This document shows, one piece after another, positions 129 through 8,190 of a stretch of 64,000 bases of DNA (position 1 is the first letter of the stretch; each line of letters opens with the position of its first letter). The notes beneath the pieces were generated by a model. It had not been told where the DNA came from, searched no databases, and saw only the letters and a program-made list of their open reading frames with translations. This stretch comes from Caldibacillus thermoamylovorans (GTDB lineage: Bacteria > Bacillota > Bacilli > Bacillales > Caldibacillaceae), in NCBI RefSeq assembly GCF_000751775.1, contig NZ_CCRF01000068.1, forward strand, positions 1 through 64,000, written 5' to 3'. A program made the position numbers and the translations under genes.

Positions 129-2063
129 CTATTTCCTTGCCTCTTGCTTAATTTGCGCTAAGAACGTATCAAATGCCATTGTTTCCGATTTTTGTTCTCC
201 GTATTTTCGGACGTTGACGGCTTTTTCTTCCATTTCTTTATCCCCGACAACAAGCATGTATGGGATTTTTTGAACTTGTGCTTCACGAATTTTATAACCC
301 ATTTTTTCATTGCGGGCATCCAATTCAACACGTATACCGGCCTTTTTCAACTCTTCTTGAACGGTTTTTGCATAGTCAAAATGGATTTCAGGGGATACCG
401 GAATCACTTGGACTTGAACCGGTGCCAGCCATGTTGGAAATGCCCCTTTGTATTCTTCAAGTAAATAAGCGACAAACCGTTCCATCGTTGAAACAACACC
501 GCGATGGATAACGACCGGACGATGCGGTTTCCCGTCTTCTCCGACATAAGTTAAATCAAAGCGTTCCGGTAATAAAAAGTCTAATTGGATGGTTGACAAA
601 GTTTCTTCTTTCCCAATCGCCGTTTTCACTTGGACATCAAGTTTCGGACCATAGAATGCTGCTTCACCTTCTGCCTCGAAATAATCAAGACCTAGATCAT
701 CCATTGCTGATTTCAACATGCTCTGTGCTTTTTCCCACATTTCATCATCATCAAAATACTTTTTCGTATCTTCCGGATCACGGTAGGATAAACGGAAAGA
801 GAAGTCGGTAATATTGAAGTCTTTATATACTTCCATAATCAACGTAACAACCCGTTTGAACTCGTCCTTAATTTGGTCCGGACGAACGAAAATATGGGCA
901 TCATTTAATGTCATACCGCGAACCCGTTGCAGTCCGGATAATGCCCCGCTCATTTCAAAACGATGCATCGTCCCAAGTTCGGCAATCCGAATTGGTAGTT
1001 CTCGATAGGAATGCTTGCTGTTTTTATAAATCATCATATGGTGCGGGCAGTTCATCGGCCGGAGTACTAATTCTTCACCGTCACCCATATCCATAGGCGG
1101 GTACATATCATCATGATAATGATCCCAGTGACCACTTGTTTTATATAAATCGACATTGGCAAGAACCGGTGTATACACATGGTCGTAGCCAAGACTGATT
1201 TCTTTATCAACAATATACCGTTCAATTGTACGGCGAACCGTTGCCCCTTTAGGTAACCATAATGGCAGCCCTTGGCCAACGAGTTGATTGATCGCAAAAA
1301 TACCTAATTCTTTTCCAAGTTTCCGGTGATCGCGTTCTTTTGCTTCTTCCAACATTTTCAAGTGGGCATCCAATTCCGCTTTGGTAAAAAAGGCAGTTCC
1401 GTAAATCCGTTGCAACATTTTATTGTCGCTGTCCCCACGCCAATAGGCACCGGCAATGCTAAGCAACTTGAATTCCTTAATTTTTCCTGTCGACGGAACA
1501 TGAACACCACGGCAAAGATCGAAAAATTCACCTTGTTCATAGATAGTTACTGTTTCATTTTCAGGAATGGCCTCAATCAGTTCCAACTTATATTCATCGC
1601 CAATTTCTTTATACATTTGAATCGCTTCTTCCCGGCTGACAACTTTCCGGACAATTTCAAGATTTTCATTGACGATTTTTTTCATTTCTTTTTCAATTTT
1701 AGGAAGGTCTTCCGGGGTGATGGATTCCTCTAAATCAATATCATAGTAAAAGCCGTTTTCAATGACCGGGCCAATACCAAGCTTGACGTTCTTATATAAC
1801 CGTTTAATTGCTTGAGCCATCAAGTGTGCCGTACTATGGCGCAAAATTTCCAGACTTTCCGGATCCTTATCAGTTAAAATTTGGATTTCGCCGCTTTCCT
1901 CAATCGGTGTACGCAAATCGATTAATGATCCGTTTAATTTTCCCGCATAGGCTTTTTTCTTCAATCCCGGACTAATCGATGCAGCAATTTCCTCCATTGT
2001 TACACCTTTTGAAAACTCCTTCACTGCTCCATCCGGAAATGTAATTTGAATCCTTTCTGACAT
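129..2063 (-). CDS. thrS: threonyl-tRNA synthetase
   Basis: Cytoplasmic class II aminoacyl-tRNA synthetase that charges tRNA-Thr. At 644 residues it is the usual length. An N-terminal TGS domain (about 1-65) is followed by the editing/SAD domain with HSTAH (His76, His80) and [11 protein letters not shown]. The catalytic core has zinc-ligand regions MNCPHH, NDAHIF and VIHRG, and the C-terminal anticodon-binding domain (about 540-644) includes [22 protein letters not shown] lies 8 nt before the ATG. Expression is very likely controlled by the T-box leader upstream at 2211-2462. The gene is monocistronic, with terminators on both sides. Identity is certain. Confidence 0.98.
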
Positions 2064-2210: not shown

Positions 2211-2462
2211 TGAAAAATAAAAAACCCGCCCCTAAAAGTAGGGACGAGTTTTAAATACCCGTGGTTCCACCCTGATTCTCGCAAAGTTTAAAAAACCATT
2301 GCGACTCAAGAAGCCGATAACGGTCGGTTCCGTCAACCATTACTTGAAAATCTTTCACAGTTGAAGTTTAAAGGGGGTAAGTCCATTATTCGTGTTAGGA
2401 AGTTTCCACCGTCCTTCCCTCTCTATAAACCGTAACAACAGACCCTTGTCCTTTGCATCACT
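2211..2462 (-). promoter_or_regulatory. T-box leader controlling thrS
   Basis: The minus strand carries the T-box core AGGGTGGAACCACGG (2259-2273), which in this family binds the uncharged tRNA acceptor end. It is followed by an attenuator stem AAAACTCGTCCCT / AGGGGCGGGTTTT (2221-2252) and a T-rich tract (2211-2223). Upstream is a long Stem I region with AGAGAGGGAAGG and GGTGGAAACTTCC typical of its distal part. A Thr codon ACC at 2376-2378 is a possible specifier, but I could not fold Stem I well enough to be sure. Low charged tRNA-Thr should favour read-through into thrS. Confidence 0.92.
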
Positions 2463-2486
2463 TTTTTCTATCCATTTAATTATTGT

Positions 2487-7376: not shown

Positions 7377-7757
7377 TTAGACATTTTGTACACTTGGACT
7401 TTTCACTTCGATAGGACCCATTCCTCTGGGAAACTCTATCGTCTCTCTTGATGTTGCATTCAATTTTTCCGCTATATAATCCGCGGCAATGGTTGGATCC
7501 AAATTACCGCACGTATAAACATCAATACTTGCATAACCGTGCTCAGGAAAACTGTGGATGGTTAAATGGGATTCTGAAATGATGACAACCCCACTGACTC
7601 CTTGAGGTGCAAATTTATGGAAGGCAACCTCCCGAACTTCAGCACCGGACTTCAACGCAGCATCAACAAATAATCTTTCAATAAAATCCATATCATTCAG
7701 TTTGTTATAGTCACAACCCCATAATTCTGAAATAACATGACGACCCAATGTATTCAT
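7377..7757 (-). CDS. speD: S-adenosylmethionine decarboxylase proenzyme
   Basis: Makes decarboxylated SAM, the aminopropyl donor for spermidine synthesis. It is 126 residues, the bacterial class 1B size. The self-cleavage site is Glu62-Ser63 in [11 protein letters not shown]; Ser63 becomes the pyruvoyl group. His68 and Cys83 (VYTCGN) are the expected processing and catalytic residues. AAAGGGGG lies 9 nt before the ATG. Unlike the B. subtilis gapB-speD transcript, a terminator (8160-8190) and a separate promoter (7898-7926) divide it from gapB here, and its leader carries a structured element (7827-7882). Confidence 0.97.
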
Positions 7758-7890
7758 ACGTACGTTCCCCCTTTAATGATTTTTTCCTGTACATACAGGT
7801 AAATGAGTGTACACGACAAAAATTGCATAACTACCACGGGGGGAAGTTAGTCCAGAGAGGCCCTAACCCTTTAAGTAGTTATTTTTCCAC
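7758..7890 (-). promoter_or_regulatory. structured 5' leader RNA of speD, candidate switch
   Basis: Assuming a start about 7 nt after the -10 box, the leader is about 133 nt. A 56-nt element (7827-7882) is closed by a perfect 8-bp stem ATAACTAC/GTAGTTAT. It encloses GTTAG/CTAAC and a segment UUCCCCCC (7838-7845). UUCCCCC is exactly complementary to GGGGGAA of the speD Shine-Dalgarno (7765-7771), but it can also pair with GGG inside the element. These two pairings exclude each other. The sequence does not match SAM-I, SMK, preQ1 or ykkC consensus patterns as I know them. Confidence 0.5.
7786..7799 (-). repeat. small inverted repeat in the speD leader
   Basis: CCTGTA and TACAGG flank a 2-nt centre. 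It lies between the 56-nt element and the speD Shine-Dalgarno and could be a small hairpin or a protein site. Confidence 0.4.
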
Positions 7891-7897
7891 GCCTATC

Positions 7898-7926
7898 AGT
7901 ATACAAGGTTTTCCTATATTAATCAA
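7898..7926 (-). promoter_or_regulatory. speD promoter
   Basis: Minus-strand -35 TTGATT (7921-7926), a 17-nt spacer, and -10 TATACT (7898-7903). It gives speD its own sigma-A promoter downstream of the gapB terminator. Confidence 0.65.
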
Positions 7927-8070: not shown

Positions 8071-8153
8071 TAAAGAAAACTCGGCGAGAGCAGAGCCGCA
8101 AGAGCACTTATGCGTTAGGAAAGTAGAAATTGAAAAATTTATACTTTCCTATT
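8071..8153 (+). repeat. dispersed repeat copy with internal deletion
   Basis: It starts TAAAGAAAACTCGGCGA, like the fuller copy at 17098, then lacks about 19 nt lying between two GGCGA words in that copy. It continues GCAGAGCCG, GCACTTAT and ends TTTATACTTTC. It lies between gapB and the speD promoter. Confidence 0.6.
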
Positions 8154-8159
8154 AGCCAA

Positions 8160-8190
8160 AAGGAAAAACCCAAGAATACAATCTTGGGTC
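8160..8190 (-). terminator. gapB terminator
   Basis: On minus, ACCCAAGA / TCTTGGGT with a 6-nt loop is followed by TTTTCC. It separates gapB from speD. Confidence 0.8.

Follow-up and report, generated by a model that had tools for sequence, protein, structure and literature searches.

A conserved RNA element in the speD leaders of Bacilli has riboswitch-like anatomy

How do Bacilli control speD, which encodes the enzyme feeding spermidine synthesis? The question is raised by a 64,000-nt stretch of Caldibacillus thermoamylovorans DNA (contig NZ_CCRF01000068.1, hereafter the window), where an earlier examination of the sequence alone (the original prediction) had proposed that the leader RNA of this gene is a translational switch. 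This prediction described a sigma-A promoter, TTGATT-17 nt-TATACT, starting a leader of about 133 nt, and within the leader a 56-nt element that is closed by a perfect 8-bp stem and contains UUCCCCC, the exact 7-nt complement of GGGGGAA in the Shine-Dalgarno sequence. These features are all present as described (Table 1). From the start inferred near 7891 to the start codon at 7757 the leader measures about 134 nt, and in 154 of 169 unique leaders TATACT recurs no more than 150 nt 5' of the element, although matches to the promoter consensus are common in themselves (5 observed versus 4.0 expected from shuffles).

Table 1. Features of the speD locus in the window
Feature	Positions	Strand	Basis or remark
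speD, S-adenosylmethionine decarboxylase proenzyme	7377..7757	-	PF02675 match, G000:C68:7422-7739
Promoter-like site TTGATT-17 nt-TATACT	7898..7926	-	recurrence of TATACT in relatives
speD 5' leader	7758..7891	-	start inferred from promoter
Element, 56 nt, upstream of speD	7827..7882	-	
P1 5' strand AUAACUAC	7875..7882	-	covarying stem
Internal-loop strand UUAAAG, conserved	7869..7874	-	alignment; echoes UUAAAGGGGG of the ribosome site
P2 5' strand GGUUAG	7863..7868	-	invariant in the window's lineage, compensated in distant relatives
Apical part GRCCUCNNNGGA, including the 2-bp P3, conserved	7851..7862	-	replaced or extended in distant relatives
P2 3' strand CUAACU	7845..7850	-	as for the P2 5' strand
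Anti-Shine-Dalgarno run UUCCCCC (C-run)	7839..7845	-	complementarity and predicted ensembles
P1 3' strand GUAGUUAU	7827..7834	-	covarying stem
speD Shine-Dalgarno GGGGGAA	7765..7771	-	run of at least five G in 157 of 158 leaders of the window's lineage with a start found

Two further features lie between gapB and speD: a terminator-like hairpin after gapB, 5' of the speD promoter (8193-8164, minus strand), and an interspersed repeat of about 79 nt (8083-8161, plus strand). With a 121-base query the repeat has at least 47 matches in the genome, itself included, at least 40 of them above 80 bits; these counts are lower bounds, as 40 of 128 first-look candidates were scored.

The original prediction also held that the C-run pairs inside the element and that this structure competes with pairing to the ribosome site. 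The first part stands: in the predicted fold of the isolated 56-nt element (-16.1 kcal/mol) P1 is closed and a GGG pairs with CCC of the C-run, replacing P2, so that the C-run has an internal partner besides the ribosome site. The competition need not be strict, as P1 and the pairing of the C-run with the ribosome site might coexist in a pseudoknot. Forcing P1 and P2 together in the full-length leader leaves the C-run unpaired and gives a predicted ensemble of -36.2 kcal/mol, less stable than the one in which the ribosome site is paired (-40.4 kcal/mol). The folding energy of the isolated element lies within the range of its shuffles (z -1.00, 30 of 200 as good) and that of the window leader is unremarkable (z -0.28, 71 of 200 as good); the evidence for the element is comparative and not energetic.

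A SpeD protein search of 101 genomes returned 118 match rows, and upstream DNA was taken for the best 90 of these 118, chosen by protein similarity alone. The core of the element, GGUUAGG-N-C-N-UC-NNN-GGACUAACU-NN-CCCC (23 fixed positions), is present in 86 of these 90 regions, whereas the other four (L087-L090) match neither of our two covariance models, R1 and R2, up to E 1. Since these regions were picked by protein, the near-invariance of the core is not due to a pattern-based choice; our other sets were chosen by pattern, so that the constancy of their fixed positions is partly built in, and only the figure of 86 in 90 is free of this circularity. On a tree of 149 such pattern-chosen leaders, 26 of 32 core columns are unchanged, versus 18 to 48 changes in the outer flank columns.

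The element is also closely linked to one gene. A scan of GTDB contigs recovered at least 118 stretches with the core, and among the matches listed, 118 of 119 have SpeD encoded within 600 nt; the sole match without it (L182) has 62 nt of DNA left and is not judgeable. R1, built from 79 cores, matches 191 of 398 genomes of the class Bacilli, 158 of these 191 belonging to orders outside the training set. PF02675 is found in 292 of the same 398 genomes, and 190 of the 191 R1-positive genomes carry speD, the match in the lone genome without it (G347) lying 7 nt from a contig edge. Among 32 loci comprising the weaker and remote matches together with the window, SpeD is encoded in 29 and absent in L267, L268 and L270. 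These three, L267 being the second match in its genome, and L308 are weak model matches without SpeD, which we judged to be chance. The element is rare in other classes: among other-class genomes R1 has two matches in a sample of 398, one of them credible (G810), and R2 has two in one of 299, again with one credible (G561), while viral contigs hold no exact match to the core pattern. Close relatives of B. subtilis carry it, namely B. tequilensis (L127) and B. halotolerans (L146). One Bacillus contig (L162) carries the element twice, at a distance of 565 nt (332-362 and 897-927), each copy followed by a SpeD sequence, which looks like a tandem speD duplication.

Conserved or covarying pairs, on which the structural part of the original prediction depends, were sought in related speD leaders, where P1 was found to covary and P2 to be compensated in distant relatives. 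In P1 (columns 6-12 with 52-58 of alignment A1), 88.8% of cells are paired, and 35 cells are changed on both sides versus 10.4 in shuffles, none of 500 shuffles reaching 35; the structure as a whole is 94.7% paired, and no more than 54.3% once the partners are slid. Among variable column pairs more than three positions apart in 149 leaders, the P1 pairs 9-54, 8-55 and 10-53 rank first to third. In a tree-based test of the same number of leaders with 400 simulations, six of the seven P1 pairs exceed all simulations in the fraction paired, pair 12-51 being matched by 41. With the plain G statistic, the numbers of simulations that match the seven pairs, in order from 6-57 to 12-51, are 0, 37, 7, 4, 4, 57 and 111, which counts against 7-56, 11-52 and 12-51.

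P2 is invariant in the window's lineage and hence shows no covariation there; P3, which extends it by two pairs at the apex, is disrupted in one of 79 rows. In 96 rows including distant relatives, aligned by fitting to the model and thus biased towards the structure, P2 has G-C for G-U in 14 rows, G-C for U-A in four, and A-U changed to G-U in 19 and to G-C in one; its U-A pair 22-93 is broken in three. In two leaders (L250 and L251, about 1499-1615, minus strand) the apical P3 loop is longer by about 50 nt, which a hairpin loop could accommodate. The flanks of the element pair better with their own partners than with those of other species (-12.5 versus -10.0 kcal/mol; standard deviation of swaps 0.23, n=118, in a control that ignores relatedness), which suggests an outer helix around the element.

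The ribosome site complementary to the C-run is conserved as well. A run of at least five G lies within 25 nt 5' of the start in 157 of 158 leaders of the window's lineage, these being the leaders, of 169 unique ones, in which our rule found a start (11 were left out); the start of the only exception (L174) may have been wrongly chosen. In comparison, of 555 other long ORFs whose site is recognisable, 91 have GGGGG, even though the scoring favoured GGGGG. Across 143 leaders the pairing of the C-run with the ribosome site has a mean predicted probability of 0.73 and is anticorrelated with P1 (-0.72). Considering nested folds only, pairing of the ribosome site gives an ensemble of lower energy than formation of P1 in 118 of 138 leaders, with a median gap of 2.4 kcal/mol, and the two are within 3 kcal/mol in 77 of the 138. 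Because these models mostly favour the paired state even without ligand, the free state would have to be reached by kinetic folding for an off-switch to work, unless the ligand has the opposite action.

A more distant lineage retains parts of this architecture in another arrangement. Its SpeD proteins are mostly about 39-48% identical to that of the window. Within the class, 102 genomes carry speD yet lack an R1 match. We inspected 26 of them (30 loci), and a clear shared frame, UAGGAaCCAGGAUUCAC ... GUGAAUGACGUAGGUCCUAGC ... GCUAGGAAGGGGG, was recognised by eye in 21 of the 30 leaders, among them L278 in a variant form, and a degenerate one in two more (L284 and L297). The remaining seven leaders (L271-L277) show no frame by eye and no R1 or R2 match, and neither form of the element was found in seven of the 26 genomes. 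R2, the model of the frame, matches 19 of the 26, a figure that holds largely by construction as many of them supplied training rows; its independent matches are G561 and the held-out L242, L257, L266 and L278. Five of 52 loci did not fit the frame pattern, of which R2 matches three strongly (L242, L266 and L278), L297 weakly and L284 only at E 0.23. The pattern has 44 unique matches, 41 of them in alignment A5.

Three stems can be followed in these 41 leaders, which were selected with a pattern in which most of P0 and the G-run are fixed. P0 (UAGGAaCC with GGUCCUA) is paired in 94.4% of cells, with no change on both sides; P1 is paired in 93.5%, with changes on both sides in four pairs; and P4 (UCCUAGC with GCUAGGA), which touches the ribosome site, is paired in 90.2%, with changes on both sides in three of seven pairs. 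P0 and P4 are mutually exclusive, the UCCUA strand being common to both. In the credible R2 match from another class (G561), P0, the shared strand and P4 change in concert (GUGGGAaCC, GGUCCCGGC and GCUGGGA), and in the R1 match from another class (G810) P1 and P2 are rewritten with their pairing kept, as judged by eye; SpeD is encoded downstream in both. Four leaders (L095, L145, L155 and L250) combine the P0/P1 frame with the invariant P2 core. The hairpin that follows is built without the P0 strand in these intermediates and in G810, and the P0/P4 exchange is hence not universal. The apical part of P2 is replaced in distant relatives, while P1, the pyrimidine run and the G-rich ribosome site are kept.

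Covariation between the loop and the ribosome site is not significant in the distant lineage, where own pairings are not significantly better than swapped ones (permutation p 0.12, 34 leaders), both sides being nearly invariant. Nevertheless, six leaders with a CUCC loop reach -13.3 kcal/mol with sites of their own type versus -9.4 with the common type. At 33 of 53 loci (for example L285 and L302), a pattern search finds CCGAAAG-like bases before the start codon that complement an in-gene CUUUCGG, and the start codon may thus lie inside a hairpin; the bases within the gene are under protein constraint as well. A different complementary pair seems, by eye, to replace this one in L254, L255 and L258.

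The combination of a structured leader, an anti-Shine-Dalgarno strand, a covarying stem and linkage to one gene is, at the sequence level, the anatomy of a translational riboswitch. We consider the element to be a cis-acting translational control element of speD, off when the C-run pairs with the GGGGG ribosome site, with a probability of about 0.6. Comparison among leaders shows the element itself, the stems P1 and P2, the tie to speD and the conserved complementarity to the ribosome site and, for the distant lineage, two mutually exclusive stems. In the proposed mechanism, the leader RNA would fold so that P1 and P2 enclose a nearly invariant internal loop, leaving the C-run free, and pairing of the C-run with the ribosome site would turn speD translation off. 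The P1/P2 fold could act as an aptamer, and a product of the pathway could shift the balance, spermidine being the first candidate, followed by decarboxylated SAM, SAM or methylthioadenosine; high levels of the product would then close the ribosome site. Spermidine as the off-signal is a guess from pathway logic. In the distant lineage, the UCCUA strand would have two possible partners, one upstream (P0) and one next to the ribosome site (P4), and the exchange between them could be set by the ligand.

A more specific proposal, to which we give slightly less than even odds, is that the element represents a new riboswitch class that differs from the SAM-I-derived one, senses spermidine or another SpeD product, and has two modules kept or lost separately by lineage. 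The first module would be the invariant P2 core with the C-run, as in the window's lineage, and the second the P0/P1 frame, whose 3' strand would, in the distant lineage, be exchangeable with a hairpin that directly adjoins the ribosome site; the intermediates hold both. Such a class would shut speD translation across the class Bacilli and rarely in neighbouring classes. The sensing of polyamines by RNA has long been claimed and was recently shown for a rare class, with further classes expected, according to the available passages of PMC10853860. The element is common and sits on the enzyme feeding spermidine synthesis, and because relatives of B. subtilis carry it, the proposal is testable in a laboratory strain; if true, it would provide a mechanism for speD control in many Bacilli.

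Among the alternatives, the one that survives best is that the invariant P2 core is read by a protein and not by a metabolite. Whether a dedicated RNA-binding protein, a ribosomal protein or SpeD itself, this protein would block or open the ribosome site on binding. The extreme constancy of this short stem-loop in the window's lineage is also typical of protein sites, and an "unknown or speD leader region" of B. subtilis appears in a table of Hfq-enriched RNAs with a value of 14.1 (PMC3574147). In the parts of that study drawn on here, the region is a 79-nt peak at 2966841-2966919 of B. subtilis, in the gap between speD and gapB, for which an earlier report is said to have suggested a leader; it is probably the same leader as that of the window, although no structure, conservation or function is given for it there. 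Control by Hfq or another protein is therefore possible, but the replacement of the P2 apical part in distant relatives, with P1, the pyrimidine run and the G-rich site retained, is a poor fit to one conserved protein site, and we regard this alternative as unlikely.

Less probable still is that polyamines or magnesium act as general cations stabilising a compact fold, or that temperature melts the fold, without a specific pocket. Polyamines bind RNA broadly, as stated in the available text of PMC10853860, and the two states are close in predicted energy; however, such an effect needs no core with 23 fixed positions in 86 of the best 90 protein-selected leaders of 118. The same Hfq enrichment of the B. 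subtilis leader region (PMC3574147, in the part available) could point to a target of a trans-acting small RNA, or to an RNA-stability device, instead of a switch, but the covarying closing stem and the conserved complement of the ribosome site point to a cis mechanism and make this very improbable. Transcription attenuation by an intrinsic terminator has a precedent in the spermidine riboswitches derived from SAM-I, which act in this way (PMC10853860, in the passages available), but only 18 of 144 leaders have a T6 run between the element and the ribosome site (T runs alone were counted) and a scan of the window revealed no terminator in its leader. The scarcity of T runs points to translational control, and an intrinsic terminator as expression platform is not supported, leaving attenuation a slim chance. 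Finally, control by a leader peptide, as in some polyamine genes, was rejected as the least probable of all for want of a conserved translated upstream frame, since the one frame open through the core in all 169 leaders has a start codon within 150 nt upstream in only 48 of them and the other two are stopped inside the core in all 169.

The translational control element favoured here does not seem to have been described before. No description was found among the papers listed in searches of open-licence literature, although one may exist elsewhere, and the phrase "speD motif" is absent from the same literature; in the parts available, PMC4448311, PMC3574147, PMC5519356, PMC11109978, PMC8632094, PMC6429828 and PMC10853860 do not describe it. 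At the gathering score, Rfam 15 has no match on the element in the window, its only match there being a T-box leader elsewhere (RF00230, 105.7 bits; 2237-2467, minus strand). Searches up to E 10 gave none on the element in nine loci of the window's lineage and ten of the distant lineage and intermediates, the listed matches lying elsewhere, and 12 leaders with a degenerate element or none match no known RNA family at the gathering score. Rfam's own four-stem covariance model for SAM-I has no match on the element in the window and the speD loci scanned, nor do the family models for SAM-III, SAM-II, SAM-V and preQ1-II; we know of no Rfam model for the spermidine variant of SAM-I. As originally predicted, the element matches none of these SAM riboswitch families, in the window or in the loci scanned from either lineage, and we regard it as a new RNA family with riboswitch-like anatomy matching no Rfam 15 family.

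Similarities to known systems are instead found in the way that they work. In SAM-III (the SMK box), an upstream strand pairs with a G-rich Shine-Dalgarno sequence, as is predicted for the speD element with its exact 7-nt complement and its G-run in 157 of 158 leaders, but the likeness is in the working only, the gene being another one and the family model having no match. In SAM-II, SAM-V and preQ1-II, the ribosome site further downstream is paired by a loop strand and the first stem is kept; a pseudoknot in the speD leader, which is possible, would have this topology, and these families have no Rfam match on the element. Other conserved RNAs on polyamine-related genes, the odc1 motif with its uORF and the potE motif (PMC8632094, in the part available), belong to other genes, and control by a uORF is contradicted for the speD element. 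A further parallel is the spermidine riboswitch, a variant of SAM-I with 13 examples and four stems that controls transcription termination, as given in the available text of Salvail et al. (2023, PMC10853860). Like the speD element, it is a Gram-positive leader RNA on polyamine genes including speD, and its off logic is the one proposed here. Nevertheless, the spermidine riboswitch is rare and acts through a terminator (PMC10853860, same passages), whereas the speD element has another sequence and architecture, is widespread and looks translational.
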